A stretch of DNA of 54,074 nt from Marinobacterium halophilum (GTDB lineage: Bacteria > Pseudomonadota > Gammaproteobacteria > Pseudomonadales > Balneatricaceae). Of this stretch, positions 2,825 through 32,332 are shown piece after piece. Both the position numbers and the translations under genes were made by a program. Under the pieces are notes generated by a model. It was not told the origin of the DNA, did not search any database, and worked only from the letters and a program-made list of their open reading frames with translations. Positions within the stretch are counted from its first letter, which is position 1. Every line of letters starts with the position of its first letter. Where the stretch lies: contig NZ_PYGI01000025.1 in NCBI RefSeq assembly GCF_003014615.1, forward strand, positions 1-54,074, written 5' to 3'.

Positions 2825-2844
2825 CATCCCTCAATAAGACTAAC
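2825..2844 (-). promoter_or_regulatory. Putative cluster operator copy (leftward) with -10 element
   Basis: Read on the minus strand this is GTTAGTCTTATTG followed by AGGGATG. The first 13 bases are identical to those of the element at 27118-27137. An exact TATAAAT (2793-2799, minus strand) lies 25 nt downstream, in position to serve the acyl-CoA synthetase gene starting at 2616. The right half deviates from the GGACGATG seen in the other copies. The 322-bp gap 2617-2938 otherwise holds a further weak ACGTCC half-site near 2681 and no visible gene. Confidence 0.5.
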
Positions 2845-2851
2845 GAAAATG

Positions 2852-2871
2852 TTTGCTGCAAATGGACGATG
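2852..2871 (+). promoter_or_regulatory. Putative cluster operator copy (rightward) with -10 element
   Basis: The element ends in AAATGGACGATG, the half-site shared with the copies at 23.9, 27.1 and 32.3 kb. The left half (TGCTGC) is degenerate. A TATTAATTT stretch (2892-2900) supplies a -10-like hexamer about 23 nt further on. This places the element around -35 to -50 of a promoter for the hydrolase gene starting at 2939. It lies 7 bp from the leftward copy, so the two divergent genes would share one regulator-binding region. Confidence 0.55.
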
Positions 2872-2938
2872 TAAAAAAACGGACTTTTGGTTATTAATTT
2901 ACGGTGAGCCTGTTTTCTAAAAATAATGAGGAATCACC

Positions 2939-3769
2939 ATGCAGCATCAGGACTTTCCACTCCCCGTTGGTAATTTTGTTGAAATCGACAATGGCCTAAC
3001 ACTTCATTACCTTGACGTCGGCCAAGGTCCAACCGTTATCTGGCTTCACGGCAGTGGCCCCGGTGCCAGCGGGCATAGCAATTTCAAAACCAACTACCCC
3101 GTATTTGCTGATCAGGGTTACAGAAATATCATTCTCGACCTGCCAGGTTTTGGTCGCTCTGACAAGCCTGATGATGTGAACTATGATCTTGATTTCTTTG
3201 TTGAATGTTTGAATCAGTTCATCAACGCCGTTGCTCTAAAACCGTGTATTTTGCTCGGTAATTCCTTGGGCGGCGCTATTGCGCTGGGCCAGACACTTGC
3301 ATACCCCGAAACGGTTGAGCGTCTGATTCTGATGGCACCCGGCGGGGTTGAAGAGCGTGAAACCTACTTCAAAATGGAAGGCATTAAACGCATGGTTGAT
3401 GTCTTTAACCAGGGACCGATGGGCGTTGAGGAGATGCGTTTTGTCATGCAACTCCAACTGTTCGACACCTCCCAGCTTGAAGACGAACTGCTGGCCGAGC
3501 GCGCTGCCGTCGCAGTGACTCAACCAGCCTGCCTGTTTTCCACCATGATGGTGCCCAATATGACCGAGCGCCTGCATGAGATTAAAATTCCCATGCTTGG
3601 TTTCTGGGGCAACAATGACAACTTCAACCCGGTTGAGGGCACGTTCAAGTTTCTTGATCATGCACCCAATGCCCGCTTCCTCATGCTCAACCGTTGTGGA
3701 CACTGGGTTCAGGTTGAACATACAGATCTCTTCAACCGTACGTGTATCGACTTCCTTAAAAACGGCTGA
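2939..3769 (+). CDS. Alpha/beta hydrolase of the C-C (meta-cleavage product) hydrolase type
   Basis: The 276-residue protein has the family's features: an oxyanion-hole segment HGSGPGASG (residues 37-45), nucleophile elbow GNSLGG with Ser109, Asp227 in GNNDNF and His255 in CGHWVQ, giving a complete Ser-Asp-His triad. HGSGPGASG and CGHWVQ are typical of vinylogous 1,5-diketone hydrolases such as MhpC, BphD, HsaD and TesD, which cut ring-cleavage products. No extradiol dioxygenase gene is present in the window, so a C-C hydrolase role is a family-based guess and an ester or lactone hydrolase remains possible. The ATG has GAGG 6 nt upstream. It is followed after 46 bp by the OYE-type gene on the same strand, probably one operon under the operator at 2852-2871. 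Confidence 0.88.
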   Translation: MQHQDFPLPVGNFVEIDNGLTLHYLDVGQGPTVIWLHGSGPGASGHSNFKTNYPVFADQGYRNIILDLPGFGRSDKPDDVNYDLDFFVECLNQFINAVALKPCILLGNSLGGAIALGQTLAYPETVERLILMAPGGVEERETYFKMEGIKRMVDVFNQGPMGVEEMRFVMQLQLFDTSQLEDELLAERAAVAVTQPACLFSTMMVPNMTERLHEIKIPMLGFWGNNDNFNPVEGTFKFLDHAPNARFLMLNRCGHWVQVEHTDLFNRTCIDFLKNG

Positions 3770-3815
3770 TTGATATTCGCACACGATTAAAACTGTCTCA
3801 TTCGGAGGTATGGCC

Positions 3816-5945
3816 GTGAGCGTATTTCAACACCTTCTCAAGCCTGGGAAGATTGGCAAACTTGAGCTGCCCAATCGTATTTTGCTTGCCCCGATGGGCT
3901 CAAACTTTGCTGAAGCAGACGGCCATTGCGGAGAGCGCATACAAGCCTTCTATGAAGCCCGCGCCAAGGGTGGCGCTGGACTGCTGACCATGGGTGTCGG
4001 TTCAATTGCATATCCGGGCGGTACCGCAGAGCCTTATCAAGTGGGTATTTCCGCTGATGAATTTATCCCCGGACTGCGGCAGTTAACTGATCGTGTGCAT
4101 CAACATGGGGCCAAAATTGCCATTCAGCTGCAGCATGCCGGCAAATCATCCACACGGGATCTTGCCGAAGGCCGTGAACTTTGGGTGCCGTCAGTCCCAC
4201 CTGCCGTCAAGACCGACATGTTCAACGCACTGACAAAATCAGAGCTTGGGCGTTTTATCAGTTCCTCAAAAGGCCGTGAAAAACCCGGTGTCCGTATTCG
4301 GGTCATGGACCGGGATGACATTCAACAGATGATTGCCTGGTTCACCGATGCCGCAGAACGCGCACAAAAGGCAGGTTTTGATGGTGTTGAAATTCACGCC
4401 GGTCACAACTACATACTGGCCGGCTTCCTGTCGGGCTATTACAACCAGCGGGACGACGAGTATGGTGGCTCTCTTGAAAACCGCGCACGCCTGCTGCTGG
4501 ACGTGATTCATGCCATAAGGGAACGCGTCGGCCCGGACTTCCCGGTATGGATGCGGATGGACGCCGTGGAAATGGATCTGCCCGGCGGGATTAATCTGGA
4601 CGATGCCACTCGCACGGCGCAGATGGCACAGCACGCCGGTGTCGACCTGGTGAGTGTTTCAGCCTATGCCAATCTCAGCACCGGCAACGCCTTCACCCAA
4701 GCCCCGATTCCGCATGGTCGAGCACGTTTTCTGGAATGGGCGGCGCACTTCAGAAAACATCTGGATATTCCGGTAACCGCCGCAGGCCGACTGGACCCTG
4801 AGGCGGCCAATCAAGCGATTGCGGATGGACACTGTGATTTCGTTGCCATGGGCCGCAAGCTGCTGGCCGATCCCGACCTGCCCAACAAGCTCAAGGAAAA
4901 CCGTGCCGCTGACGTGCGCCCCTGTATCTATTGCTACGTCTGCGTCAGCCAGATATTTGTCAACGAGCGAGTCAAATGTGCCGTTAACCCACAGGTTGGC
5001 CATGAATCCGAGCTCAAAATGATCGCCAGCGACAGTCCGAAACAGGTACTGGTGGTGGGCGGAGGCCCTGCCGGTCTGGAAGCCGCTCGCGTCAGTGCTC
5101 TGCGTGGCCACCAGGTGACTCTGGTGGAACGCAGCGGTCGCCTGGGCGGCACCCTGTTTTTTGCTGCCCTCGCCTACCCGGAAAACGGCGCGTTGCTGGA
5201 TTACCTGATCAAACAGGTCCGTGACCTGCCGATCGATGTACGCCTGAATACCAACGCCGACGAAGCGCTGGTCAAGACGCTGCAGCCGGATCAGGTGATC
5301 GTCGCCGCCGGTGCACGCCGCAACGCTCCGGATATTCCCGGTGCCGACCAAAAACATGTCTGGTCCGGCGATGAACTGCGCAAGCTGATGACGGGTGAAG
5401 GCGATGACATTGCCAAACGCAAGCTCAGCATCACGCAACGCATGATGATGAAGTCCGGCTCACTGGTCGGCGTGACCAACAGCACCGAAGCGATGCAGAG
5501 TCTGTCCAAGCTGTGGATGCCGCTGGGCAAAAAGGTCGCCATCATCGGCGGCGGTCTGGTCGGTCTGGAACTGGCCGAGTTTCTGGTCGAACGTGGCCGC
5601 CAGGTACAGGTACTGGAGCCCGGCCCGGACCTGGGTGCCGAATTGGCCATCGTGCGCCGCTGGAAGGTGCTGCACAACCTGGAAAGCCATGGCGTCACCC
5701 TGACCAGAAACGCACAGGTTCAAACCATCAGCAAGAAGAGTGTCAGCTATTCGGATGGTGAGGATAACTGTCATGAGATTGCTGCCGACTCCGTGGTACT
5801 GGCGCTCGGGGCCGAAACCAACCACTGTCTGAGCCGGTGCCTGGAAAAGCACGGTATCGACGTGATCAATATCGGTGACGGCGATGACGTTGCCTACATT
5901 GAAGGCGCGCTCAGAACCGGTATGAAAGCAGCCGCCGCAATCTGA
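3816..5945 (+). CDS. Old Yellow Enzyme / 2,4-dienoyl-CoA reductase-type FMN-FeS-FAD oxidoreductase
   Basis: This protein of about 709 residues has an N-terminal FMN TIM barrel (LLKPGKIGKLELPNRILLAP to about residue 365), a cysteine cluster CIYCYVC...KC, then an FAD domain (VLVVGGGPAGLEAARV) and an NAD(P) domain (VAIIGGGLVGLELAEF). This is the layout of 2,4-dienoyl-CoA reductase, trimethylamine dehydrogenase and the bile-acid enzymes BaiCD/BaiH, which reduce C=C bonds of enones or dienoyl-CoAs. I chose GTG 3816 over ATG 3810: the GGAGG at 3804-3808 lies 7 nt from the GTG but only 1 nt from the ATG, and the protein then begins SVFQHLLKPGKI after the initiator. The cysteine spacing is C-x2-C-x2-C-x11-C, one residue shorter in the second gap than the C-x2-C-x3-C-x11-C I recall for FadH. 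The substrate is probably an unsaturated ring or acyl intermediate. Confidence 0.9.
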   Translation: MSVFQHLLKPGKIGKLELPNRILLAPMGSNFAEADGHCGERIQAFYEARAKGGAGLLTMGVGSIAYPGGTAEPYQVGISADEFIPGLRQLTDRVHQHGAKIAIQLQHAGKSSTRDLAEGRELWVPSVPPAVKTDMFNALTKSELGRFISSSKGREKPGVRIRVMDRDDIQQMIAWFTDAAERAQKAGFDGVEIHAGHNYILAGFLSGYYNQRDDEYGGSLENRARLLLDVIHAIRERVGPDFPVWMRMDAVEMDLPGGINLDDATRTAQMAQHAGVDLVSVSAYANLSTGNAFTQAPIPHGRARFLEWAAHFRKHLDIPVTAAGRLDPEAANQAIADGHCDFVAMGRKLLADPDLPNKLKENRAADVRPCIYCYVCVSQIFVNERVKCAVNPQVGHESELKMIASDSPKQVLVVGGGPAGLEAARVSALRGHQVTLVERSGRLGGTLFFAALAYPENGALLDYLIKQVRDLPIDVRLNTNADEALVKTLQPDQVIVAAGARRNAPDIPGADQKHVWSGDELRKLMTGEGDDIAKRKLSITQRMMMKSGSLVGVTNSTEAMQSLSKLWMPLGKKVAIIGGGLVGLELAEFLVERGRQVQVLEPGPDLGAELAIVRRWKVLHNLESHGVTLTRNAQVQTISKKSVSYSDGEDNCHEIAADSVVLALGAETNHCLSRCLEKHGIDVINIGDGDDVAYIEGALRTGMKAAAAI

Positions 5946-5992: not shown

Positions 5993-6152
5993 CTGTGCAT
6001 ACTTCTCCTCGACCGCCCTTCTGCCAATAGCCAGCCCGCTTTTGTTTTCGTAAGCTATTGCGTACACAATGAAATGCCATATTTTGGCTCGACCCTTGGT
6101 TTCAGCAGGGTTCCGTTTATTGCACGTTACGGAAAAAGGGATTTTGCAGGCT

Positions 6153-9100
6153 ATGCACTCAACAGGAACCGCAACCAAGACCACCAACTTCCATTTTCTG
6201 GCTGAGCATGACCCGCTTTTTGTCCAGCTGGCTTCCGCCGCCGAGCACACCTTCGCCAGTGACCCGAACACCACGCTGATCAAACTGCGTCAGCTTGGTG
6301 AAGCACTGGCACAACACATCGCGGCATTGTCCGGTATCGAGTTCGATGAACAGACCAGCCAGTCCGACCTGCTCTATCGCTTGAGCCGCGACCTGCGACT
6401 GGAGCCACAGGTCAAAGAGTTATTCCACACCCTGCGCATTGAAGGTAACAAGGCCACCCACCAGTTCCGTACCCGTCACAAGGAAGCCATGGACGGGTTG
6501 AAGCTGGCACGTGAGCTGGCCATCTGGTTTCACCGCTCTTTTGGCAAAACTGGAGCAGACTTCAAGTCTGGACCCTTTATTCCTCCTGCCGACCCCAGTA
6601 CTCAGTTGCGCCAGCTGCAATCCGACATTGAAAAGCTGCGCCATGAACTGCAACAGGCAAACGTCGAGTTGGACAACAGCCAACAGCTAAGCCAACTGGT
6701 TGAGCGGGAAAAGGCCGAATTTGAAGCGTTGGCCTTGGCTATGGATGAAGAGTCTCGTCAACTGTCCGAACAGGCCCGTCAGCATGAACAAACGCTGACT
6801 CAACAAAGGCAGACCTACGAACACAAGATCAAAGAGCTGCAACAACAGCTTGCAGATCAGGGTGAAAAGGCGCTGAGTGTTCAGCGTCAACAGGTCAGCC
6901 AAAAGACTCAGGCTGCCGGTAACGCAATGGTCCTGAGCGAAGAACTTACCCGCATCCTGATTGACCAGCAGCTCAATGAAGCCGGTTGGGAAACAGACAG
7001 CCAAGAGATCACCTGGAAAAAAGGTGCACAGCCACAAGAAGGCACTAATTGCGCCATAGCCGAATGGCCCACCGAGTATCTGGGCGAAAAAGGCTGGGCG
7101 GATTATGTCCTTTTTGCGGGCCTCACCCCAATCGCAGTCGTAGAGGCAAAGAAAGAAAATACCAACGTAGCAGGCAAAGTGCCGCAGGCAGAGCGTTACA
7201 GCAAGGGCTTCAAGGTAATACCCTCATTGTCGGGAGCCTGGGAGCTCACTGGCCACACAGTTGCTTGGCCAGTGCCTGATGAAGAGGGCCATTACAAAGT
7301 GCCCTTCGTTTACTCCTGCAATGGCCGTCCCTATATCCCTCAACTGGCCGAGCAGTCCGGCACCTGGTTCAGGGACGTACGTGAACCGAGCAACACTCGC
7401 AGAGCCCTGCCTGCGTTTCATACCCCTGCAGGCCTGCTCGATCTATTGGAACGTGACCGAGAGCACGCCGAGCAAAAACTGAAAGCAGAACCTTTTGGTT
7501 ATTTGAAACTGCGTGACTATCAGCAAAAAGCGATAACGGCGACTGAATGCGCGCTGGCCAAAGGTGTGCGCACAGCTCTGTTGGCAATGGCCACAGGCAC
7601 AGGCAAGACCCACACCATCATCGGCCTGATGTATCGTTTTCTGAAAAGCGAACGCTTTCACCGCATTCTGTTTTTGGTAGACCGAACCGCACTGGGTGAT
7701 CAGGCCTTCGACGCCTTTGAGGAAACAACCCTCGAACAAAACCAGACCCTGAACCAGATCTACAACCTTGCAGCAATGGGTGACGCCAAGGCAGAAGTCG
7801 AAACTCGGGTACAGGTCGCGACCGTACAGGCCATGGCCAAACGTATATTTATGAGCGACCAGCCGCCATCCATCGACCAGTTCGACTGCATCATCATCGA
7901 CGAAGCCCACCGTGGCTACACTCTGGACCAGGAAATGACTGAAGGCGAGCTGGCCACGCGGGACGCCAGCCAATACCTTTCCAGCTACCGCCGTGTACTG
8001 GATTACTTCGATGCCGTGAAGATCGGGCTGACCGCCACCCCGGCCCGGCACACCTCCGAAATTTTCGGCAAACCGGTCTACACCTACTCCTACCCGGAAG
8101 CGGTCGCCGATGATTGGCTCATCGACCATGAACCTCCGATCCGATACAAAACGCTGCTGTCCAAGCACGGCATCCACTTTGACAAGGGTGAAGCCGTTGA
8201 AGTGATCAACACCCAAACGGGCGAAGTGGATACCACTGACCTGGAAGACGAACTCCATTTCGAAGTCGACGCCTTCAACCGTCGTGTGATCAACGAAGAC
8301 TTCAACCGCGTCATCTGCGAACAGCTGGCACAGGAGCTGGACCCCTTCGGCGAAGAGAAAACCCTGATATTCTGCGCCACCGACCTGCATGCCGACATGG
8401 TAAAACGTCTACTGGATCAAGCCTTTAAAGACCTCTATAACGGCAGTTACAGTGAAGCTGCCGTCGCCAAGATCACCGGCAAGAGCGACAAGGTAGAAAG
8501 CCTGATCAAGCGCTATAAAAACGAGCGTTACCCGAATATCGCCATCACGGTAGACCTGCTCACCACCGGTATCGATGTAAAGCCCATCTGTCATCTGGTG
8601 TTCTTGCGCCGAGTCCGTTCACGCATTCTGTATGAACAGATGATCGGCCGTGCCACGCGTCGCTGCGACGATATTGGTAAAACCGTCTTCCGTATCTATG
8701 ACCCGGTCGACATCTATGCGGCCCTGGAAGACGTCAACACCATGAAGCCGCTGGTGAAAGACCCCAATATCACGCTTGAGCAGTTAATCGGTGAACTGAC
8801 TGACGAGCAGCACCTGGAAAACGCACTGAACACCCCTGGCGAACAGACGGGCGAGACTCAAGCCGATGTTGTGCTGAGCCAACTCAGTCAAAAGCTGATG
8901 CGCGTGATGCGCAAGGCCGACAAGAAAGCCGAAAACGCGCCAGCCCTGCAGCAGAAACTGGGCGAACTTCACGACATCTGGGGGGTTGAGCCCAAATCAC
9001 TGCATACCCATTTGCGCCAGCTTGGCCCGCGCCAGGCCGCTGACTTCATCCGCCAACACAACGGGCTCCTGAACCAGCTGGAAGAAGTAAAAGCATTGGT

Positions 9101-9686
9101 CGGCAGCGAATACATGCCGGTGATTTCAGAGCATGAAGACCGCATTGAAGAACGCAGCCAAAGCTACGGCGTACATCAGCGACCGGAAGACTATCTGGAC
9201 AGTTTCAACCGGTTCATCAAAGATCAAGTCAACCAGTCGGCGGCACTGGCTGTCGTCGTTAACAAACCGCGTGATCTTACCCGCGAGCAGCTACGTGACG
9301 TCAAACTGCTGCTGGACAACCACGGCTACTCTGAAGCCCACCTGCAAAGCGCGGTGCGCAACCAAACCAACAAGGACATCGCCGCCAGCATTATCGGCCA
9401 TATCCGACGTGCTGCCTTTGGTGAACCACTGATCCCCTTCGGCCAGCGTGTGGCCCACGCCATGGATCGTATCTATACCCAACACGACTGGACACCCGTG
9501 CAACGCAAATGGCTTGAACGCCTCGCCAAACAGCTGGTACACGAAGTCATTATTGACCATGAATTCGTCAACAAGCGTTTTACCGACGACGGTGGTGCCA
9601 AGCGGCTGGACAAACTGCTGAATGATCAGCTGGATGTCGTGCTGGATGAACTCAACGACGCGATCTGGCCACAGCAAAGTGCCTGA
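6153..9686 (+). CDS. hsdR: Type I restriction enzyme R subunit (HsdR)
   Basis: The ATP-dependent translocase and endonuclease subunit of a type I restriction-modification complex. With ATG 6153 (AGG 3 nt upstream) it has 1177 residues. The open frame continues upstream to an ATG at 6069, but that extension lacks domain character. In order: a DUF4145-like N-terminal region (about 25-130), a coiled-coil rich in Gln/Glu (about 150-255), a PD-(D/E)XK-type nuclease segment (GWADYVLF...AVVEAKK, Lys near 331), Walker A MATGTGKT near 479, DEAH box near 582 (IIDEAHRGY), GLTATPAR (motif III), motif VI region QMIGRATRRC, and the EcoEI-type C-terminal domain. It is the first gene of the set hsdR-fic-hsdM-hsdS; all motifs are intact. 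Confidence 0.95.
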   Translation: MHSTGTATKTTNFHFLAEHDPLFVQLASAAEHTFASDPNTTLIKLRQLGEALAQHIAALSGIEFDEQTSQSDLLYRLSRDLRLEPQVKELFHTLRIEGNKATHQFRTRHKEAMDGLKLARELAIWFHRSFGKTGADFKSGPFIPPADPSTQLRQLQSDIEKLRHELQQANVELDNSQQLSQLVEREKAEFEALALAMDEESRQLSEQARQHEQTLTQQRQTYEHKIKELQQQLADQGEKALSVQRQQVSQKTQAAGNAMVLSEELTRILIDQQLNEAGWETDSQEITWKKGAQPQEGTNCAIAEWPTEYLGEKGWADYVLFAGLTPIAVVEAKKENTNVAGKVPQAERYSKGFKVIPSLSGAWELTGHTVAWPVPDEEGHYKVPFVYSCNGRPYIPQLAEQSGTWFRDVREPSNTRRALPAFHTPAGLLDLLERDREHAEQKLKAEPFGYLKLRDYQQKAITATECALAKGVRTALLAMATGTGKTHTIIGLMYRFLKSERFHRILFLVDRTALGDQAFDAFEETTLEQNQTLNQIYNLAAMGDAKAEVETRVQVATVQAMAKRIFMSDQPPSIDQFDCIIIDEAHRGYTLDQEMTEGELATRDASQYLSSYRRVLDYFDAVKIGLTATPARHTSEIFGKPVYTYSYPEAVADDWLIDHEPPIRYKTLLSKHGIHFDKGEAVEVINTQTGEVDTTDLEDELHFEVDAFNRRVINEDFNRVICEQLAQELDPFGEEKTLIFCATDLHADMVKRLLDQAFKDLYNGSYSEAAVAKITGKSDKVESLIKRYKNERYPNIAITVDLLTTGIDVKPICHLVFLRRVRSRILYEQMIGRATRRCDDIGKTVFRIYDPVDIYAALEDVNTMKPLVKDPNITLEQLIGELTDEQHLENALNTPGEQTGETQADVVLSQLSQKLMRVMRKADKKAENAPALQQKLGELHDIWGVEPKSLHTHLRQLGPRQAADFIRQHNGLLNQLEEVKALVGSEYMPVISEHEDRIEERSQSYGVHQRPEDYLDSFNRFIKDQVNQSAALAVVVNKPRDLTREQLRDVKLLLDNHGYSEAHLQSAVRNQTNKDIAASIIGHIRRAAFGEPLIPFGQRVAHAMDRIYTQHDWTPVQRKWLERLAKQLVHEVIIDHEFVNKRFTDDGGAKRLDKLLNDQLDVVLDELNDAIWPQQSA

Positions 9687-9702
9687 TCGCCTCGGGCAGA
9701 CA

Positions 9703-9789
9703 TGTCGATTTTTTGGCATTTTTTCGACACAGATATTTGCTATGTTGACCGCATCGACATAGACTGCCGGAAACACCCTGCTGTGTCGA
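9703..9789 (+). promoter_or_regulatory. Four TGTCGA/TCGACA boxes upstream of fic
   Basis: TGTCGA at 9703-9708, TCGACA at 9724-9729, TCGACA at 9754-9759 and TGTCGA at 9784-9789 lie within 87 bp. They start 21, 30 and 30 bp apart, forming two inverted pairs around T-rich DNA. They fill the 123-bp gap between hsdR and the fic start. The arrangement suggests an operator. The downstream Fic protein has its own C-terminal winged-helix domain, so autoregulation of fic-hsdM-hsdS is a reasonable hypothesis. Confidence 0.5.
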
Positions 9790-9809
9790 AATTTTCAAGG
9801 AATTTAAAC

Positions 9810-10916
9810 ATGCCCTGGCGGCCGGATCAGCCTTACAACGCACTACCTCCGCTTGCGCCACCCACGGAAGCGACAGAAACACTCGCCATCCTCAAAGCCT
9901 GCATCCCTGCCCGCGCCGCCCTGGCCGAGCTGAAGCAGGCCGGTGAGTTGATTCCCAACCAGTCGTTGCTCATCAACCTGCTGCCGCTGCTGGAAGCCAG
10001 AGACAGTTCCGAAATCGAGAACATTGTCACCACCACCGACAAGCTGTTTCAGTATTCACAGGAAGATCAGGGTGCCGACCCCGCAACAAAAGAAGCCCTT
10101 CGCTACCGCACCGCCCTGTATGAAGGCTTCGTACACCTGCAACAAAGGCCGTTGTGCGCCAGCACCGCCATTGAAGTGTGCGGCACCCTGAAAGGCATGG
10201 AAATGGACGTGCGCAAAGTGCCCGGAACCATTATTGGCAATCACGCGACCGGTGAAACCATCTACACGCCGCCCAACGGCGAAGAGGTTATTCGCAACCT
10301 GCTCACCAACTGGGAGAATTATCTGCACGCGGAAGACGGCACCGATCCGCTGATTAAAATGGCCATCAGCCATTATCAGTTTGAAGCCATTCACCCCTTC
10401 CATGATGGCAATGGCCGTACCGGCAGGATCGTTAACGTCCTTTACCTGATTGAACAGCAGCTGCTGACACTCCCCATCCTCTACCTGAGCCGTTACATCG
10501 TTCAGCACAAAAGCGATTACTACCGCCTGCTGACCCACGTGACCCGCACGGGTGAGTGGCAGGATTGGATTATCTTTATGCTCAAAGGGGTTGAACAGGT
10601 ATCGGCCTGGACCTGCGCCAAGATTGCCGCCATGCGCACGCTCATCACGCAGACCGAAGCACACGTTCGGCAACAATTGCCCAAGATATACAGCCACGAA
10701 CTGGTGCAAACCATTTTTGAACAGCCCTATTGCCGCATCAGCAACCTGGTTGAGAAAGGGATCGCCAAACGGCAAACCGCCTCCACTTACCTGAAACAGC
10801 TCGTTGAGATTGGTGTGCTACAGGAAAAAACCGCCGGCAACGAAAAGCTCTTCCTCAACCCGCGCCTGTTGCGGCTGATGACCAGCGACAGCAACGATCT
10901 GCAACCGTATAACTGA
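9810..10916 (+). CDS. Fic-family AMPylase-type protein with N-terminal inhibitory motif and C-terminal winged helix
   Basis: A 368-residue protein with the Fic core motif HPFHDGNGRTGR near residue 195. This is the full HPFxxGNGRxxR signature of active nucleotidyl (usually AMP) transferases that modify hydroxyl side chains of target proteins. Upstream is SSEIEN near residue 66, matching the (S/T)xxxE(G/N) autoinhibitory helix of class II Fic proteins. The last 70 residues (QTIFEQPYCRISNLVEKGIAKRQ onward) look like a winged helix-turn-helix. ATG 9810 was chosen because AAGGA lies 8 nt upstream and MPWRPDQPYNALPPLAPP is the usual N-terminus of this group; the frame is open to an ATG at 9702. It lies between hsdR and hsdM on the same strand, 24 bp before hsdM. 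Its role there (regulator, toxin or modifier of Hsd subunits) is unknown. Confidence 0.9.
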   Translation: MPWRPDQPYNALPPLAPPTEATETLAILKACIPARAALAELKQAGELIPNQSLLINLLPLLEARDSSEIENIVTTTDKLFQYSQEDQGADPATKEALRYRTALYEGFVHLQQRPLCASTAIEVCGTLKGMEMDVRKVPGTIIGNHATGETIYTPPNGEEVIRNLLTNWENYLHAEDGTDPLIKMAISHYQFEAIHPFHDGNGRTGRIVNVLYLIEQQLLTLPILYLSRYIVQHKSDYYRLLTHVTRTGEWQDWIIFMLKGVEQVSAWTCAKIAAMRTLITQTEAHVRQQLPKIYSHELVQTIFEQPYCRISNLVEKGIAKRQTASTYLKQLVEIGVLQEKTAGNEKLFLNPRLLRLMTSDSNDLQPYN

Positions 10917-10940
10917 ATTCAGACACCCACTGAGACCACC

Positions 10941-22991: not shown

Positions 22992-23046
22992 AACTCTTCT
23001 CCTCAGAACGATGAGGCCACCTCAGCTCAGGCGGCACCGAGTAATT

Positions 23047-23829: not shown

Positions 23830-23885
23830 ATACGCCTCCTCAAAACTCATTTAACTAGTCTATTCATCTCTCCCCCCAACAATCT

Positions 23886-24218: not shown

Positions 24219-25205
24219 ATGAAAAAAAACAACCTGACAGTCAATACTGTCTGTGGACCCATTGACATTGAATCATTAGGCAACGTTCTAATGCATGAAC
24301 ACCTGACGCTAGGTTTGCCCGGCTGGGAAAACGATTCACATGCACCCTATATAGACAGATCTTCACTCATTGAACGCGTATGCGCAAAAATTGAATCTCT
24401 TAAAAATGCCGGTTTCAATACATTGTTAGACCCATGCCCCATGGATTTGGGAAGAGACATTGATTTAGCGATTGAGGTATCGACAAGAACAGGTTTCAAT
24501 ATTATTTGTGCTACTGGCCTGTATACAGAAAATGAGGGCGGTAATTCTTACTGGAAACTTATTCAAAAATGCGACCCTGAAGAGTTCATTGACCGAGCAT
24601 CAAAGCTTTTCATTAAGGAAATCACAGAGGGTATTGGAGCCACTACTGCCAAAGCCGGTGTAATAAAAATTGGCTCTGATAATGGTGAAATAACTCAATA
24701 CGAAATGGATGTCATCAAAGCAGCGGCACAAGCCCACCTGAAGACTGGCACACCTATTACTACACACACAGATGCGACCATCGGTCACTTGCAACTCCAG
24801 GCACTTATTGAATGTGGCGTACCTGCTGAAAAAGTCATCATTGGCCATTCGTGTGGTAATAGTAATACAGATTATCACACCCATTTGGCTCATCAGGGTG
24901 CCTATGTTGGATTTGATCGGTTTGGTTACGGTATTATTGTTTCAGACGATGTGCGAATAGAAAATCTGGTTTCGATGATAAAATCAGGTTTTATTGAAAA
25001 ACTAATCATTTCTCATGACTGTATTTTCTGCGCTAAAGGTGAGCCCTTCACGCAGGGCATAAAAAATGCACCGCCGGGAACATTTCATGTAGAACCCACT
25101 TACATCCAACAGGAAATAATTCCAAGACTCATGGATATGGGTGTCACAGAAGATCAAATAAAGACATTACTTTCAGATAATCCGAAAAAATATTTTTCCA
25201 TGTAA
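24219..25205 (+). CDS. Phosphotriesterase-like amidohydrolase (probable lactonase)
   Basis: A 328-residue member of the phosphotriesterase family with a complete binuclear metal site: His26 and His28 (MHEHL), Lys149 (AGVIKIG, the carboxylated lysine), His182 (THTD), His209 (GHSCG) and Asp266 (SHDC). Most family members hydrolyse lactones and a few hydrolyse organophosphates. In this context opening of a lactone intermediate is the more likely job. The gene is markedly AT-rich compared with the ACAD genes and its codons end in A/T more often, as is also the case for the LuxR-type gene at 25.6-26.7 kb, which suggests a separate origin. It stands alone, downstream of the operator at 23886-23903 but 315 bp away. 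Confidence 0.9.
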   Translation: MKKNNLTVNTVCGPIDIESLGNVLMHEHLTLGLPGWENDSHAPYIDRSSLIERVCAKIESLKNAGFNTLLDPCPMDLGRDIDLAIEVSTRTGFNIICATGLYTENEGGNSYWKLIQKCDPEEFIDRASKLFIKEITEGIGATTAKAGVIKIGSDNGEITQYEMDVIKAAAQAHLKTGTPITTHTDATIGHLQLQALIECGVPAEKVIIGHSCGNSNTDYHTHLAHQGAYVGFDRFGYGIIVSDDVRIENLVSMIKSGFIEKLIISHDCIFCAKGEPFTQGIKNAPPGTFHVEPTYIQQEIIPRLMDMGVTEDQIKTLLSDNPKKYFSM

Positions 25206-25594: not shown

Positions 25595-26746
25595 CTATAG
25601 CTCGTTACTGCCAAGTGCAGCCACGCTATTGATAAACGCACGAACCAGTTCTGTCTGACGTCTGATGCCCGTTTTTGAGAAAATTGATCTCAAGTGTGCT
25701 CTGGCAGTATTCCGTTTTATATTCAAATCTTCAGCAGCATCTTCAAGCGACAAACCATCTGCCAATTTAAGAGCAAGAGCATTCTCGGCAGTCGTAAGGC
25801 CAAATAGCTTTCTGGCAACATCAACATTCGCATTAAGTTTGCCAATAGCATCTCGAATATAGATCATTGCCACTGGACTGCTTTTCCCTTCAGCCCAGTT
25901 ATTAATTGGAATAGGTTCAACAACCAAACCCAGATTCACCTCACCAGAAGGTCGTGTAATTGACATGGCACCGGGAAGAACCTGCTCTTCTCCATTCGTA
26001 GCAGCATCAAACGCACTTTTTATAAGCTTTTTCAGCTCTTTATTATCGGAAGGATAGCTTGCTTCTAAGCGGCCACCTATGATTTTCAAACCATCACATG
26101 AATCAATTATATTCCTCGCGTATATATTTTTATCCAGTACAGTTCCATCTTCATCAATCAATAGTGTTGCAATGGATAATTTACTAATCGCACGGGAATA
26201 CAATGATTCAATTTTCTGGATTTGGTCAATTTGCTTGTTTATTTTAAGTGCGCGACGTATATGTGGAAGCAGTTTTTCACATAACTTTTTATCATTATTT
26301 GAAAATGGTTTACTCTCTTCACCTCTTGTGATTCGAAGACGAAGAATGCCTGAATCCTGAGTGGATATATCAACACCCATAACATGATAAATATTTGAAG
26401 GGATAAGCCAATGCGAACGAAACGAGTTATCAATCCAACTTGTTTCTTTCATGATATCAAATACCGTAAATACCTTATCTGGAATCTGATTATGAAAAGG
26501 AGTAAGGTTATGTTGATATGGGAAAGAAATTATTTCACCAGAATTCGGCATATCACCTACCGAAACCATAAGACCAATGTTATCCTCATCCTGTGCATAA
26601 GGCATTTTCAATATCAAGGTAACATAGTTTGCGTCAAAGAGATGCTGAATGTGCTCCAGCGCAACTCCCCATCGCTCATTGTTGATTGTCGCCTCATACA
26701 GTTCTGAAAGAATCGTATCGAGACTGTCTGCACCAATCATGCTCAT
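25595..26746 (-). CDS. LuxR-family transcriptional regulator of the catabolic cluster
   Basis: A 383-residue protein with a C-terminal LuxR/GerE helix-turn-helix: FGLTTAENALALKLADGLSLEDAAEDLNIKRNTARAHLRSIFSKTGIRRQTELV. The N-terminal 300 residues look like a ligand-sensing region with a PAS-like part (LSIATLLIDEDGTVLDKNIYARNII). Large stand-alone LuxR-type regulators of this shape are known in steroid-degradation clusters (for example TeiR of Comamonas), which fits. ATG 26746 has AAGG 8 nt upstream; the frame is open to 26809 but the extra residues look non-coding. The gene is AT-rich. It is the best candidate for the protein that binds the GGACGATG palindromes. The copy at 27118 lies upstream of this transcription unit, suggesting autoregulation. 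Confidence 0.87.
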   Translation of the reverse strand: MSMIGADSLDTILSELYEATINNERWGVALEHIQHLFDANYVTLILKMPYAQDEDNIGLMVSVGDMPNSGEIISFPYQHNLTPFHNQIPDKVFTVFDIMKETSWIDNSFRSHWLIPSNIYHVMGVDISTQDSGILRLRITRGEESKPFSNNDKKLCEKLLPHIRRALKINKQIDQIQKIESLYSRAISKLSIATLLIDEDGTVLDKNIYARNIIDSCDGLKIIGGRLEASYPSDNKELKKLIKSAFDAATNGEEQVLPGAMSITRPSGEVNLGLVVEPIPINNWAEGKSSPVAMIYIRDAIGKLNANVDVARKLFGLTTAENALALKLADGLSLEDAAEDLNIKRNTARAHLRSIFSKTGIRRQTELVRAFINSVAALGSNEL

Positions 26747-26835
26747 AGTATTGCCTTTATAGTTATATTGATGAGTAAATATGACTGCTGGAGGGTTAAT
26801 GATGCACAAATATCCAGCACCCGGTGCTTGAAAAA

Positions 26836-26994
26836 TTATCCAATTTCCTTAGTAGACTCTAAAATGGCATTAAACGGATCCGCTTTTGAAACGTGATCAG
26901 TCGCCAAGCAATGCTGGTCACCGCTCATTTGGGCATAAGCCTCTAGTATCAATTGAGTGATACATACCAGAGAACGTGCCATGTAGACAGCCAT
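26836..26994 (-). CDS. Possible small protein (52 aa) ahead of the regulator gene
   Basis: An open frame MAVYMARSLVCITQLILEAYAQ...STKEIG with AGGAGAG 9 nt upstream of ATG 26994 (the frame also has an ATG at 27048). It begins within 130 bp downstream of an operator copy and ends 89 bp before the regulator start codon. I recognise no family. It could be a leader peptide, a small regulatory protein, a gene remnant or chance. There is no signal peptide; a moderately hydrophobic stretch LVCITQLILEAYA is visible. The rest of 26747-27198 shows no other gene. Confidence 0.3.
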   Translation of the reverse strand: MAVYMARSLVCITQLILEAYAQMSGDQHCLATDHVSKADPFNAILESTKEIG

Positions 26995-27117
26995 GCATGT
27001 GGTCTCTCCTGAGTTGTCGTTATCCAGAGAACTTGCTTGCCACTGCATGCGTTCGACAGACAGGTCGATCTAGAGCTGTCCAGCCTATTTAACATTACGA
27101 CTGGAAACAGCCTACAA

Positions 27118-27137
27118 CATCGTCCAATAAGACTAAC
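27118..27137 (-). promoter_or_regulatory. Putative cluster operator upstream of the regulator transcript
   Basis: On the minus strand this reads GTTAGTCTTATTGGACGATG. Its right half GGACGATG is identical to the copies at 2.86, 23.9 and 32.3 kb, and its left 13 bases to the copy at 2825-2844. A TTAAAT hexamer (27087-27092) lies 25 nt downstream. The only genes downstream on this strand are the 52-residue frame and the LuxR-type regulator. Confidence 0.55.
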
Positions 27138-27198: not shown

Positions 27199-27687
27199 TC
27201 AAAGTGTAAAGTTCTGCAGGTGTCGGGACAGGTCTCCAATCAGTCCAACCTGGGTGTAATCACGGTACGTAAAGCGCCACACCCCATCCACACAGGCAAA
27301 CTCGTCCCGATAACGTCCAGTCATGATTGGTTGCAGCGGGCTGTCTTCAGTGGCTTGCAAAACGGTGTAGCAGGAACGGCAACTGGCGACGCCAGCCATT
27401 TCATCGATTTGCATAATCGGGTTGGTGACCATATGCCGGGTTCGCGGTGTACCACAGGGGTAGATTCGAATAATGCTCTGCCACAGCTGTAACAGCCCTT
27501 CAGCATCCACCACGCTGCCGGATGCCCCCGTTTGAATACGGGCATGCCTGAACAATGCGGCCGCTTCAGCCAACTGTCCATCATCGATTAATTCAGCATA
27601 GCGATACAGCAAGTTACCAATCTGTACATGGGCAGGTAATGACACATTCAACTCCTGGCAGATAACGTGTCCAGTGGACTTTGCCAT
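27199..27687 (-). CDS. NTF2/SnoaL-like protein
   Basis: A 162-residue protein with the look of the SnoaL_4/NTF2-like fold: an N-terminal helix pair (VQIGNLLYRYAELIDDGQLAEAAALFRHARIQTG) and a strand-rich part (RHMVTNPIMQIDEMAGVASCRSCYTVLQ...YRDEFACVDGVWRFTYRDYTQVG). Members include ketosteroid isomerase-like enzymes, dehydratases and non-catalytic binding proteins, so no specific reaction can be named. It is the last gene of the leftward operon MBL hydrolase-ligase-ligase-NTF2, 69 bp after the FadD3-like gene. An isomerase or cyclase-type role would fit a polycyclic substrate but is a guess. Confidence 0.8.
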   Translation of the reverse strand: MAKSTGHVICQELNVSLPAHVQIGNLLYRYAELIDDGQLAEAAALFRHARIQTGASGSVVDAEGLLQLWQSIIRIYPCGTPRTRHMVTNPIMQIDEMAGVASCRSCYTVLQATEDSPLQPIMTGRYRDEFACVDGVWRFTYRDYTQVGLIGDLSRHLQNFTL

Positions 27688-27756
27688 CCTAAATAACCTT
27701 AAATCTTTCAGCAGCGACTGAATGCCGTTGCTGAACTCGGGTGGCGCTGATTGATT

Positions 27757-29364
27757 TCAAGCCGGCTCGAAGTCACGCTTGAGCGCCAGCTTATCCACCT
27801 TGTTGGAGGCATTCACCGGCAGCATCGATACCATGCGCACCTGCCGTGGTACCTTGTAGTTGGCCATCTGCTCACGAGACCACTTGATCAGCTCCTTTTC
27901 ATCCAGGCTACTGCCATGGCGCTTGACGATGAAGGCACAGCCCACTTCACCCATGCGCTCATCCGGCACACCAATAACCGCAGCCTGAGCCACTTCAGGA
28001 TGCTCCACCAACGCCGCTTCGATCTCGGCCGGGTAACAGTTGAAGCCACCAACAATAAACATGTCTTTGAGACGACCGGTAATACGCAGGTAACCGTTAT
28101 CATCCAGGCTGCCGATATCACCGGTATGCAACCATCGCTCTTCATCAATGGCCTCGGCGGTCGCTTCTGGATTCTGGAAATACCCCTGCATCACATGAAA
28201 ACCACGGAGACAAATTTCGCCATTTTCGTTGGCTGCCAGCGGCTTTCCATCCGGATCAAGAATCGCAACTTCAGTCCCGGGGATCGCTTTCCCGCTGGTC
28301 GTTGCGATGGTCTCAGCCGAGTCATCAGGATCACAAATCGTGGCAAAACCACCACATTCAGTCAGGCCGTAGGCCGTCGTCACGACATCAAAGCCCAACT
28401 CATTGCGCATGCGTTCAATCAGCACCGGCGGCACGCTTGAAGACCCCGTGACGGCAACACGCAAGCTACTGAGGTCTTTGTCATTGAGCTCAGGATGCGC
28501 CAACAATGAAAGATAAAGCGTCGGTGGGCCTGGCAACACCGTTACGTTATCCTTTTCGATCCGCTGCAACACCTCATCCGCATCAAACACGGGATGGGGC
28601 AGCACGGTTGAGCCGGAAAGCAGGCAGCTCAACCACCCGGCCTTATAGCCAAAGGCATGGAAAAACGGGTTTATGATCAGGTAGCGGTCACCCGGACGCA
28701 GTCCCAGTACCTGTACAAATTCGGCAAAAGCAGCCAACGCCGCGCCATGGGCCCCCATAACACCCTTGGGCTTCCCTGTTGTCCCCGACGTGAACATAAG
28801 GTCTGAAAGACTTTCGGCGCTCAACTGACTGGCACGCGCACGCGCTGTCGACTCACTTATCGCCTTACCCTGTTCAATAAAGGCGTCCCACTCCAGGTTG
28901 TTGGCCAGAGGCTCACCTTGACGGTCGCTCATCACCACCGTCATATCGAGCCAGTCAGCACAGCTTTCTGCAATCAGTGCCGGGTAGTCGCTGCCAAGGA
29001 AGTCACCAGTGCTGAACAGCATACGGCTGCCACTGCGGGTGATAATGTCACGCGCTTCACTGGCCTTCATGCGAGTATTGATCGGTACCAGCACCGCACC
29101 GGCCATTTGCAATCCCAATGCTGCCAGAATCCAGCGGGCACAGTTCGGTGCCCAGACGGCTACCGGGTCTCCAGGCTGAACACCCAGTTGAATCAGCCCG
29201 CGCGCGACATCCAGCACTCGGTCTGACAAGTCTGCATAGTCAATCACCTCCAGCCCTTCTTCAATGGCCGGAATGCCCGCAAACTGTCGTGAAGCTTCAA
29301 ACACAAGCTCGGGAATGGTGTGAGCTTTTAAAGGGGTATCATGGTGTTTTTTTATTATAGTCAT
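27757..29364 (-). CDS. Acyl-CoA synthetase, FadD3-like
   Basis: A 535-residue adenylate-forming CoA ligase. Motifs are DLMFTSGTTGKPKGVMGAH near residue 187, TAYGLTECG, WLHTGDIGSLDDNGYLRITGRLKDMFIVGGFNCYP and the C-terminal catalytic Lys region NASNKVDKLALK. The stretch VTVLPGPPTLYLSLLAHPELNDKDLSSLRVAVTGSSSVPPVLIERM resembles FadD3, the HIP-CoA ligase that activates the steroid C/D-ring propionate. I give this as a resemblance from memory. It is the third gene of the leftward operon, 57 bp after the 563-residue ligase. The ribosome-binding site is weak (TTGAG). Confidence 0.87.
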   Translation of the reverse strand: MTIIKKHHDTPLKAHTIPELVFEASRQFAGIPAIEEGLEVIDYADLSDRVLDVARGLIQLGVQPGDPVAVWAPNCARWILAALGLQMAGAVLVPINTRMKASEARDIITRSGSRMLFSTGDFLGSDYPALIAESCADWLDMTVVMSDRQGEPLANNLEWDAFIEQGKAISESTARARASQLSAESLSDLMFTSGTTGKPKGVMGAHGAALAAFAEFVQVLGLRPGDRYLIINPFFHAFGYKAGWLSCLLSGSTVLPHPVFDADEVLQRIEKDNVTVLPGPPTLYLSLLAHPELNDKDLSSLRVAVTGSSSVPPVLIERMRNELGFDVVTTAYGLTECGGFATICDPDDSAETIATTSGKAIPGTEVAILDPDGKPLAANENGEICLRGFHVMQGYFQNPEATAEAIDEERWLHTGDIGSLDDNGYLRITGRLKDMFIVGGFNCYPAEIEAALVEHPEVAQAAVIGVPDERMGEVGCAFIVKRHGSSLDEKELIKWSREQMANYKVPRQVRMVSMLPVNASNKVDKLALKRDFEPA

Positions 29365-29421
29365 CTCAAGTACTCATAATGATTGTGCTACTGACACACG
29401 CGCCATATAAAAATTAATGCA

Positions 29422-31113
29422 TTAAATCAGATGGTTTTTTATCTGTTGCTTCAGTAGCTTACCGGCAGGATTACGGGGTAATGTTTCCTGCTGAACAGCG
29501 ATCATTGATGGCACTTTATAAGCGGCAAGATGCCCCGCGACAAAACTCTTCAGTTCAGCCTCATCCAGTTCTTCTCCCGGCTGGATCGCCACCACAGCTA
29601 CAACCGCCTCCCCCGTTTCATCATCAGGAACGCCCAACACAGCGGCTTCGCGCACCAGGGGATGACGCAAAAGGCATGACTCCACTTCTGCTGCCGCAAT
29701 ATTTTCGCCAGACTTGTTGATAACATCCTTGAGCCTGTCGACAACGTACAACAAACCATTGGAACCTACGTGACCCAAGTCCCCCGTGTGCAACCAGCCA
29801 TTTCTGAGCGCGTCTGATGTCGCGTCTTCACGATTGAGGTAACCCTCCATGAGGGTGATGGAGCGGAGGCATATTTCACCGTTTTCACCACCCGGAAGCT
29901 CATCGCCATCAGGGCCTACAATCTTTACCTCGGCAAGCGGGGAAATAACGCCAGTAGCATTTGGATACAACCTGAATAAGTCACCTGACACTGCAGCGCC
30001 AACACCGTTTGTTTCAGTCATGCCGTATCCGTTACCGACAAACTGATCGGCAAGGGAGTCAAGTACCTCATCAATCAGCCCTTGTGGCAAACCTGCCCCA
30101 CCCAGTCCCAGGCCAGCCAAGCCCCCCTTCACTGCATCAGTATGAAATTCCGACTCTCGCAAGAGCTGCATCACCATGGAAGGCGCACCATTGAACTGGG
30201 TGACCTGCTCACTTTTCATCAGCTCAATAGCAACTTTCGGGTTCCACTTGTGCATAAAGACCAAACGACGCCCCGTACGCAATGCCGTCAACAACTGCGC
30301 ATGTAACCCACTGACATGAAACAGCGGTACCGCCGTCAGAATGACGGGCGCGCGCCCAAGCCGCTGAATTTTTTCAACGGCCTCAGGAGAGGTCATGGCC
30401 GACAGTGCACTGATGTAATCGATATTAAACAGTGCCTGACAAACGGCTCGATGATTCGATACCACAGGTTTGGCACGACTGGTGGCCCCAGAGGTAAACA
30501 GGATCAACGCAGTATCCCTAGGCTCTGGCGAAACCTCGGGTAGCTCAAGGACGGGGCCGGCAGCCACGTCGGCATATGCTTCAATATTATCGGTTACCGC
30601 CAGCGGGATATTATCGACAACTACAACGGGTATTTTTGCGCCCAAATAGGATGGACCGATTCGCACCAATCGATCAGCGTCACAAACCAGAGCATCAGCA
30701 TCTATGTCATCCAGTGCTGCATGAAGCTCTTCAGCCAGCCCGAAACTGTTCAATAACGCCGGTACAGCGCCCAGGCTGACGGCCGCCATGAACGCAACCA
30801 CCCACTCAGGACGATTACGCATTGCAATGGCAACACGACTACCGGAGCGAACACCCTGTGAAAGCATCCATGATGCCACTGCATCCAGATGGGAATAGAA
30901 GCGGCCATAACTCCAGCGTTCATCTTGGTATACCATGAAACATTCGTCATCTTCGCGACGTGCCTGACGAACCACTTCAGCCAAATTAACTGGAGCATTT
31001 TTGTAGAGCCCGTACCTTCCAGATTCTGTTACGATCGATTCCAACTCAAAAGGGGCCCCGCTAGCGGTCAGTTGAGACTGCATGGTCACAGTTCTTTTCG
31101 CAATGGCATTCAT
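29422..31113 (-). CDS. Acyl-CoA synthetase with atypical P-loop
   Basis: A 563-residue class I adenylate-forming ligase. Visible are YGMTETNG, WLHTGDLGHVGSNGLLYVVDRLKDVINKSGENIAAAEVE and the C-terminal NPAGKLLKQQIK with the catalytic Lys. The AMP-binding loop is ILFTSGATSRAKPVVSNH, which departs from the consensus TSGTTGxPKG at three positions (A for T, S for G, A for P). It probably still functions, since the later motifs are intact. ATG 31113 has AAGAGG 5 nt upstream, and the gene begins 15 bp after the metallo-hydrolase. The substrate is unknown; two ligases in one operon suggest two different carboxylate intermediates. Confidence 0.88.
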   Translation of the reverse strand: MNAIAKRTVTMQSQLTASGAPFELESIVTESGRYGLYKNAPVNLAEVVRQARREDDECFMVYQDERWSYGRFYSHLDAVASWMLSQGVRSGSRVAIAMRNRPEWVVAFMAAVSLGAVPALLNSFGLAEELHAALDDIDADALVCDADRLVRIGPSYLGAKIPVVVVDNIPLAVTDNIEAYADVAAGPVLELPEVSPEPRDTALILFTSGATSRAKPVVSNHRAVCQALFNIDYISALSAMTSPEAVEKIQRLGRAPVILTAVPLFHVSGLHAQLLTALRTGRRLVFMHKWNPKVAIELMKSEQVTQFNGAPSMVMQLLRESEFHTDAVKGGLAGLGLGGAGLPQGLIDEVLDSLADQFVGNGYGMTETNGVGAAVSGDLFRLYPNATGVISPLAEVKIVGPDGDELPGGENGEICLRSITLMEGYLNREDATSDALRNGWLHTGDLGHVGSNGLLYVVDRLKDVINKSGENIAAAEVESCLLRHPLVREAAVLGVPDDETGEAVVAVVAIQPGEELDEAELKSFVAGHLAAYKVPSMIAVQQETLPRNPAGKLLKQQIKNHLI

Positions 31114-31128
31114 GGAAACCTCTTATTT

Positions 31129-32220
31129 TTAGATATAGCTATCAGATTTAATACAGTAACTATCTGGAATATCTTTGCTTTTAAAACGCACGATCACTTC
31201 CGCAGCGTTCAGATAGTTCAAATGAGATAACGTCTCACCAATTGCCAGCATCATATCGATGGGCTTCAGCTCACGCGGAAATAGCACGTTCATTGCATCC
31301 CATGCCGTAAAGCGGCCATGATTCTTAGCGAACTCGGTCAATACTTTGAATTGACGATGATGGTGAGCCACAAGTTGATCCAGGCGAGTGTGCAACCCTT
31401 TAAATACAAACCCATGGGCGGGCATGACAATGCTATCGCTAGAGAGGGCTTTCAAACGCTCTAAAGAATCCAGCCAGTGTTTCAGCGGGTTTGCTTCAGG
31501 TTCAACATCACTGACAAGCACATTAGAACTGATGGATGGCAGCACTTGATCACCGGATATTAGCAGAGCATCCTCTTCACAATATAGGCACGCATGTTCG
31601 GGTGAATGTCCTTCTCCTATTACTATCCGCCATTTACGGCCACCTATGGATAAATTATCACCTTCCCTCAAGCGTATGTACTTGTTTGGAAAGTCGGGCA
31701 TGAATGGATCGTTACCATAAATGCCTATTATTTTTTCAATATCTTTATCTGGAGTGCCCGCCAGATAAAGATATTCACGCTGGCACTGCCTGTCAATCAC
31801 AGCACCTGAACTTGCCAGTGCTCGCATAGTGAAATATTCACCATGCGTCATATAAAGTGGTACGGAAAATTCTTTCATTAACCAGCTTGCCAAGCCTGCA
31901 TGGTCATAGTGAAAATGGGTACAGATAACACCAACTAACGGTTTTTCTTTAAAATATCGATCAGCCAGTTCTTTCCATGCAGCTTTAGAAGCTTCCGTAT
32001 TGAGGCCCGTATCGATCAAATACCAGCCCTTGCTGTCCTCAAGAACATAGACATTTATATGATCCAACGCCATCGGCATAGGAATACGCGCCCAAAAAAC
32101 TCCGGCTGATATCGCCACAAGCTGACAACTTTCAGTAGGCTTTTCAAAGGGATATTCTAGAGCTGCACGCTCGTCATCTCGACGCTTTTTCGATTTATCT
32201 TCGCTTTCATTTCCAAGCAT
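31129..32220 (-). CDS. Metallo-beta-lactamase-fold hydrolase
   Basis: A 363-residue protein with the binuclear metal motif THFHYDHAG (HxHxDH) near residue 101, GEGHSPEHACLYCEEDALLISGDQVLP (third His and bridging Asp) and a C-terminal PAHG. The fold hydrolyses thioesters, lactones and other esters. The long C-terminal helical extension is of the type found in SDR-associated or acyl-CoA-associated MBL hydrolases. It is the first gene of the leftward operon containing two CoA ligases. Upstream lies the operator at 32313-32332, shared with the MFS gene. It is cytoplasmic, as no signal peptide is seen. Confidence 0.88.
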   Translation of the reverse strand: MLGNESEDKSKKRRDDERAALEYPFEKPTESCQLVAISAGVFWARIPMPMALDHINVYVLEDSKGWYLIDTGLNTEASKAAWKELADRYFKEKPLVGVICTHFHYDHAGLASWLMKEFSVPLYMTHGEYFTMRALASSGAVIDRQCQREYLYLAGTPDKDIEKIIGIYGNDPFMPDFPNKYIRLREGDNLSIGGRKWRIVIGEGHSPEHACLYCEEDALLISGDQVLPSISSNVLVSDVEPEANPLKHWLDSLERLKALSSDSIVMPAHGFVFKGLHTRLDQLVAHHHRQFKVLTEFAKNHGRFTAWDAMNVLFPRELKPIDMMLAIGETLSHLNYLNAAEVIVRFKSKDIPDSYCIKSDSYI

Positions 32221-32312
32221 GCCGCCTCCTTCACATCCGTATCCACCATAGATATAATGTGTCTTACCATCTATGGACCCCCTTTAGTAAAACCCTACCG
32301 TAAACTCGAAAT

Positions 32313-32332
32313 CTACGTCCAAAAGGACGATG
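32313..32332 (+). promoter_or_regulatory. Best copy of the putative cluster operator (perfect palindrome)
   Basis: The core CGTCCAAAAGGACG (32316-32329) is a perfect 14-bp palindrome, flanked by CTA and ATG as in the copy at 23.9 kb. Rightward, TTAAAT (32358-32363) follows GATG after 25 nt, ahead of the MFS gene. Leftward, TACTAA lies about 23 nt from the other arm, ahead of the MBL hydrolase gene. The symmetry fits a dimeric regulator driving both divergent units. Confidence 0.65.

Follow-up and report, generated by a model that had tools for sequence, protein, structure and literature searches.

Candidate operators of a TeiR-like, LuxR-type regulator in a steroid-type catabolic cluster of Marinobacterium halophilum

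Five short elements in a catabolic cluster of Marinobacterium halophilum are likely to be operators of a TeiR-like, LuxR-type regulator, whose gene lies among them at 25.6 kb, and also of the paralogue (62% identity) that contig C3 encodes. The DNA analysed, hereafter the window, is the whole 54,074-nucleotide contig NZ_PYGI01000025.1 (C25 of the 3.65-Mb genome), and the closest named relatives by regulator similarity are Marinobacterium species. The regulator gene sits in a steroid-type degradation cluster that also encodes a FadD3-family ligase, a lipid-transfer protein, a ChsH2-like protein and acyl-CoA dehydrogenases (ACADs). An earlier note on this DNA had proposed the five elements, here called sites A to E, and all of them are present between open reading frames (ORFs) of at least 150 amino acids. 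Sites C, D and E are copies of one operator, (A/C)GTCY-N4-RGACGATG. Judged by sequence, a real and conserved operator is firm for these three, probable for B and uncertain for A. The labels TeiR-like, KshB-type, Ltp2-like and HsaA-like are our own, for family matches.

Site C is near-symmetric and lies on the plus strand between an operon of short-chain dehydrogenase/reductase (SDR), ChsH2-like and ACAD genes (minus strand) and a phosphotriesterase-family gene (plus strand). It had been placed at 23886-23903, and its true extent is 23884-23903. A forward -10-like hexamer, GAATAT (23924-23929, plus strand), follows 20 nt past the site toward the phosphotriesterase-family gene, and a reverse one, TAGACT (23857-23862, minus strand), stands 21 nt away toward the SDR-ChsH2-like operon. 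Site D (27118-27137, minus strand) is upstream of the regulator gene, which is probably autoregulated, and has its hexamer TAATGT (27092-27097, minus strand) 20 nt beyond. Site E (32313-32332, plus strand) separates metallo-beta-lactamase (MBL)-fold and ligase genes (minus strand) from major facilitator superfamily (MFS), DUF1329 and DUF1302 genes (plus strand). Its forward hexamer, AAGGAT (32353-32358, plus strand, 20 nt past the site), is weak, and its reverse one, TTTACT (32286-32291, minus strand, 21 nt away), is a misfit to TAnnnT. The site E 20-mer, which recurs at C20:16432 in the same genome, had been called a perfect palindrome; this is true of the arms (CGTCC-AAAA-GGACG) but not of the whole element.

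The two remaining sites are degenerate. Site B (2852-2871, plus strand), facing the alpha/beta-hydrolase and old yellow enzyme (OYE)-type genes, keeps GGACGATG with a poor left half, and the hexamer TATTAA (2892-2897, plus strand) lies 20 nt past it. Site A (2825-2844, minus strand) faces the acyl-CoA synthetase gene at 793-2616; its right half deviates and its -10-like CAACTT (2799-2804) is weak. As had been noticed earlier, it nevertheless resembles site D (17 of 20 positions identical, with a chance of about 6e-5 in that gap). Across seven genomes, the regions upstream of the hydrolase carry the forward GGACGATG in nine of nine cases and a canonical opposite site in seven of nine, and the CATCCC form of site A is common to the window and its 91% orthologue in G004. 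Since most homologous promoters have the canonical opposite site and the variant is shared with the orthologue, site A may be an altered but retained, putative site, though this is uncertain.

The element is conserved well beyond Marinobacterium. Around regulator homologues of 47-81% identity, 80 named loci were collected (the best 80 of 507), and the pattern GTC-N5-GGACGATG occurs 68 times in 53 of them; the reversed pattern is absent, and 300 letter-permuted controls give a mean of 1.2 and a maximum of 19. The spacing is specific, as every other spacer from 0 to 12 yields at most 12 occurrences. These counts are not independent, because the loci were selected via the regulator and the species and paralogues are related. 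The site is retained beside the regulator in Halomonas, Shewanella, Vibrio, Pseudomonas, Thauera and Zoogloea. Of the 74 non-Marinobacterium loci, 26 are without the exact site and carry variants such as CTTAGTCCGCACAGACGATG. When these 26 are held out, each has a best site scoring at least 17.2 on the luxR strand (controls reach 17 in 5 of 260 cases, with a maximum of 21.1), and xAnnnT stands 20 or 21 nt downstream in all 26, as opposed to 16 of 260 controls. An annotated Vibrio alfacsensis plasmid (L217) bears a steroid-type cluster with the regulator, and both of its exact sites are intergenic: one precedes the electron transfer flavoprotein (ETF)-regulator genes, and the other lies between the enoyl-CoA hydratase and the SDR-OB-fold-ACAD genes.

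Among more distant proteins, the plasmid homologues of Burkholderia, Caballeronia and Cupriavidus (36-38% identity) have best sites scoring 20.8-28.1, with the hexamer at the top site in two of the three. A Sphingobium homologue (30%) near a 3-oxosteroid 1-dehydrogenase gene has a best site that scores 22.1 and lacks the hexamer. In G097, whose homologues are 32-34% identical, TATCGTCCAAAAGGACGATG lies about 4 kb from one of them. Five other distant matches, in the short loci L044-L048, reach best scores of 3.2-14.4 only. At position 1252 of L044, near the 39% homologue of G077, there is a fully symmetric TATCGTCTTTTTGGACGATA with a matrix score of just 11.2, perhaps a diverged operator. In L183, the TAG of the operator (11169-11188) is also the stop codon of the luxR ORF (9794-11173), so that the site begins in the gene end, and several Pseudomonas loci resemble it in this overlap.

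The site also follows the regulator from genome to genome. Exact GTCNNANNGGACGATG is found 7, 5, 5, 5, 5, 6 and 5 times in the seven of 115 genomes (our own included) whose regulator shows 59% identity or more; the other 108 have 0-4 copies. Same-genus genomes without the regulator (G003, G006 and G007) have no exact copy. A single long contig carries the cluster in the relatives G001, G005 and G048, and all but one of their 16 exact sites are within 60 kb of luxR; in assemblies G000, G002, G004 and G060 they are scattered over several contigs. In a further set of 369 genomes, drawn evenly from the class and searched for the regulator at E <= 1e-50, only G000 and G336 encode it, and these alone have more than one TAGTCYNNNNGGACGATG (four and five, respectively). 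The pattern occurs once in nine other genomes and is absent from 358. Nine such genomes are the expected background, since the backwards control pattern gives one match each in ten. Three of the five G336 sites precede an extradiol-dioxygenase-like gene, an SDR pair or a DUF1329 gene. In the same genome, the TAGTCCCAAAGGACGATG site near an integrase-like gene (L227 7856) is the same 18-mer as at the DUF1329 gene (L229 8093).

Within the genome of M. halophilum itself, there are seven exact GTCNNANNGGACGATG copies and none of the reversed control: three in the window, two on C3, and one each on C15 and C20. If no more than one mismatch is allowed, CTACGTCNNANNGGACGATG is found at four places only (C20:16432, C3:167056 and sites C and E of the window), all of them at steroid-type genes. 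The stretches on C3, C15 and C20 hold paralogous genes, including the SDR-ACAD operon with its divergent enoyl-CoA hydratase, an SDR-OYE-ETF-regulator gene row, an HsaA-like gene with a reductase, KshA_C, and the MBL/ligase/MFS and hydrolase/OYE sets. A scoring matrix built from 45 unique 20-mers of other genera only finds 13 sites of at least 18.6 outside the window (one and four in two C3 stretches, two on C15, five on C20 and one on C35), in stretches that were picked for pattern matches. Many of the 13 belong to a second steroid cluster, paralogous to that of the window, which encodes its own copy of the LuxR-type regulator. On C35, the gene downstream of the site is extradiol-dioxygenase-like. 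The earlier idea that the five sites define a regulon is supported by co-occurrence in two genome sets and by these further loci, with the reservation that A and B are degenerate. The choice of the LuxR-type protein as candidate binder is also supported, given this co-occurrence, the persistence of the site beside the regulator across genera and the second regulator copy at the further loci with sites.

Alignment of 108 unique sites reveals a second conserved block, 20-21 nt downstream of GGACGATG, with TAnnnT at offset 20 in 24 sites against a mean of 1.4 over 45 offsets. A/T-rich hexamers had been proposed as -10 elements 23-25 nt downstream. Those letters are there, but across the family the conserved -10-like hexamer stands at 20-21 nt, and the 23-25 nt spacing was rejected for the family as a whole: offset 24 has no TAnnnT and a single xAnnnT among the 108 sites, and offsets 23-25 together have 6 TAnnnT versus 31 at offsets 19-21. 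The companion proposal of an activator overlapping -35 is supported, though at 20-21 nt rather than 23-25. If the conserved hexamer is the -10, the dyad centre is computed at about -42.5 relative to the predicted start sites, which would fit a regulator that replaces the -35 element. In the mechanism we propose, the target of a dimer of the C-terminal GerE-type helix-turn-helix (HTH) would be the dyad GTCY-N4-RGAC, lengthened toward the promoter to GGACGATG. The protein would stand in for the -35 element and, as a class II activator, would contact RNA polymerase directly. The regulon would be that of steroid (bile-acid-type) catabolism, from uptake, CoA activation and side-chain removal to ring opening, together with the regulator itself. 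The inducer would be a steroid or steroid-CoA, sensed by the GAF/PAS-like part of the protein.

The simplest objection is that a common 8-mer was picked by eye and reflects chance or composition. The elements had been found by eye in intergenic DNA only; GGACGATG is present in B, C, D and E, and a fifth exact copy lies inside an ORF at 4598. Its five exact matches in the window compare with 2.0 expected, and five or more appear in 7 of 100 shuffles; in an unbiased 8-mer list it ranks just 96-97 (z 8.9). As a stand-alone signal, the 8-mer is therefore near chance and was rejected. The full element is not, since the three highest scores that the foreign-trained matrix gives in the window are those of D (24.4), C (21.8) and E (20.8), with 60 Markov windows giving a best of 20.1 and a mean of 10.8. 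The spacer-specific enrichment, the class-wide co-occurrence and the held-out test also contradict chance, which we find scarcely credible as a general explanation. The evidence speaks against it for C, D and E, and it is possible for site A. A second objection, which we judge very improbable, is that the sites are alike through joint duplication and transfer of whole clusters, by descent without function. The window cluster and the C3, C15 and C20 loci are indeed paralogous, and each tends to retain its own spacer variant. Yet in other genera, beside regulators 47-60% identical, the flanks have diverged while 16-20 bases and the +20 hexamer remain, and quite different promoters within one genome carry the same element.

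It is also conceivable, though unlikely, that the operator is real but bound by some other transcription factor that accompanies steroid clusters, the LuxR-type protein being a mere neighbour. Any cluster-linked factor would co-occur in loci fetched via this protein, the Vibrio cluster encodes another HTH protein, and the G336 sites are not beside the regulator genes. However, co-occurrence tracks the LuxR-type protein even in genomes that were not chosen by it, 14 of the 80 named loci have an exact site that starts no more than 150 bases past the luxR match, and no other HTH regulator is found among the 30 window proteins scanned with Pfam. Several observations nonetheless weigh against control by the LuxR-type protein through these sites. 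Site E barely exceeds the best Markov control, and B and A fit the matrix poorly (fifth at 10.4 and eleventh at 4.8, behind a fourth match of 12.0 in an ORF). The 26 held-out loci have just 15 distinct best 20-mers. In G336, two of the five sites have no clear steroid target (one is near the integrase-like gene, one in a called ORF), and autoregulation is not seen, as the 20-kb stretches that surround its two regulator genes hold no site above 17.3. The HsaA-like and HsaD-like proteins are under NCBIfam cut-offs. Loose genome-wide scans are uninformative: with two mismatches allowed, the pattern gives fewer matches than its reversed control (359 versus 596), and so does a longer pattern with three (39 versus 74). 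Moreover, 31 of 115 sites are inside an ORF called by a crude gene caller, and for the 84 outside, a gene is called in the direction of the site in 58 of 82 cases.

The two forms of the left half may have different roles. Sites with a CGTC left half (C and E) are nearly symmetric, lie between divergent genes and tend to be flanked by a -10-like hexamer on each side, and sites with another left half (D and A/B) would be one-way or paired. Where C is at -1, TAnnnT is found 21 nt off on the reverse strand in 15 of 32 sites (mean 1.2), including TAGACT at site C. This is a tendency rather than a rule, because a reverse hexamer also accompanies 9 of the 60 sites that have A at -1, and within the C group the forward hexamer varies in position over 19-21 nt, both of which count against the idea. 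C at -1 is seen in 27 of 55 divergent versus 1 of 28 tandem sites; given the crude gene calls and the few orthologous groups, the link between left symmetry and divergent genes is a lead only. More broadly, throughout the Beta- and Gammaproteobacteria, and perhaps in Sphingobium, TeiR-like proteins of GAF-PAS-HTH type might read one operator code, (A/C)GTCY-N4-RGACGATG with a -10 at 20-21 nt, as a general switch of proteobacterial steroid catabolism in which CGTC versus AGTC sets two divergent promoters or one. The nine exceptions among 60 AGTC sites lower its probability, and we lean slightly against this broad form. If it is true, TeiR-type proteins would exert their control on DNA directly, instead of or in addition to the proposed kinase cascade. 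A defined operator, a promoter geometry and a candidate binder make the little-understood control of steroid catabolism directly testable, and the operator would aid regulon prediction, steroid biosensors and the finding of unannotated steroid genes.

The regulator gene (25595-26809, minus strand) encodes predicted GAF-like and PAS-like regions and a C-terminal GerE HTH at residues 338-390 (Pfam GerE, 24.7 bits against a cut-off of 23.5). At E <= 0.001 only GerE is detected, with neither an autoinducer-binding (acyl-homoserine-lactone) domain nor an N-terminal receiver domain of NarL/FixJ type. A structure model of moderate confidence (mean pLDDT 74, pTM 0.52) suggests a division into GAF-like (27-190), PAS-like (about 210-320) and HTH parts. 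GAF-containing phosphodiesterases and phytochrome sensor modules make up most of the first 50 Foldseek hits, a single VqmA stands at rank 41, and a search of solved structures matched only the HTH part. The segment RNTARAHLR is identical in both regulator copies of the genome, which may therefore share operators. A family alignment suggests a start at M22, near 26746. The leader of more than 300 nt between site D and luxR (26746-27090) contains, by eye, what may be a short ORF, some 50 codons long, with a ribosome site resembling AGGAGA.

The minus-strand operon at 15730-23850 encodes, in steroid side-chain fashion, an SDR, a ChsH2-like protein, an ACAD, MaoC, a lipid-transfer (Ltp2-like) protein and three ACADs; another minus-strand group (27199-32220) comprises an MBL-fold gene, an acyl-CoA ligase, a FadD3-family ligase and a SnoaL-like gene. 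The FadD3-family ligase, lipid-transfer protein and SDR are above NCBIfam cut-offs. On the plus strand are the MFS transporter, DUF1329 and DUF1302 genes (32390-36967), the phosphotriesterase-family gene (24219-25205) and an HsaD/BphD-like hydrolase, below NCBIfam cut-offs, with an OYE-type oxidoreductase (2939-5945). The AMP-binding acyl-CoA synthetase (793-2616) is on the minus strand. Within the catabolic region, the hydrolase-OYE genes are separated from a chemoreceptor gene by a type I restriction-modification operon (6069-13924; hsdR, Fic, hsdM and hsdS) with a SoFic-like Fic gene. The chemoreceptor (13925-15598), with a single Cache domain, adjoins the steroid operon and could be a steroid chemosensor.

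The closest parallel in promoter layout is the class II lux-box promoter of LuxR in Vibrio fischeri, where a 20-bp inverted repeat centred near -42.5 replaces the -35 element. The window sites would have a 20-bp inverted repeat in a like position, as computed from the -10-like hexamer, with another sequence, and their regulator, unlike that LuxR, has no acyl-homoserine-lactone-binding domain that we could find. VqmA also has a PAS-like part ahead of a GerE-type HTH. The window regulator shares this arrangement, and VqmA is among its Foldseek hits, but the window regulator has an extra N-terminal GAF-like region and the listed hits are low in TM-score. As for earlier reports, the operator is not described in open-licence literature among the matches listed. 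Among those naming TeiR and TesR, neither "inverted repeat" nor "DNA-binding motif" appears as whole words, and those for "ggacgatg" with "steroid" include none on bacterial regulation by title; a search for DUF1302, DUF1329 and LuxR together found nothing. In Comamonas testosteroni, TeiR/TesR is described as a LuxR-type positive regulator of steroid gene clusters and as a polar membrane kinase, in passages that mention no operator for it (PMC6895838, PMC6678751, PMC8700777, PMC8399759). The window protein, compared with TeiR by description, is likewise a LuxR-type HTH protein encoded among steroid genes, whereas none of its segments is strongly hydrophobic (19-residue means peak at 1.04). In stutzeri Chol1, one deletion delays growth on cholate (unpublished data in PMC8399759). 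According to passages of the same source, sterol catabolism in Actinobacteria is controlled by the KstR/KstR2 regulons, whose regulators are said to have no homologues in bile-acid-degrading Proteobacteria (PMC8399759). KstR and KstR2 are TetR-type repressors, unlike the LuxR-type regulator of the window, so that the likeness is at the pathway level. At the level of gene order, the SDR and chsH2E1H1ltp2chsE2 genes of strain TA441, in the part of the source consulted (PMC13101464), are arranged as are the genes beside site C.

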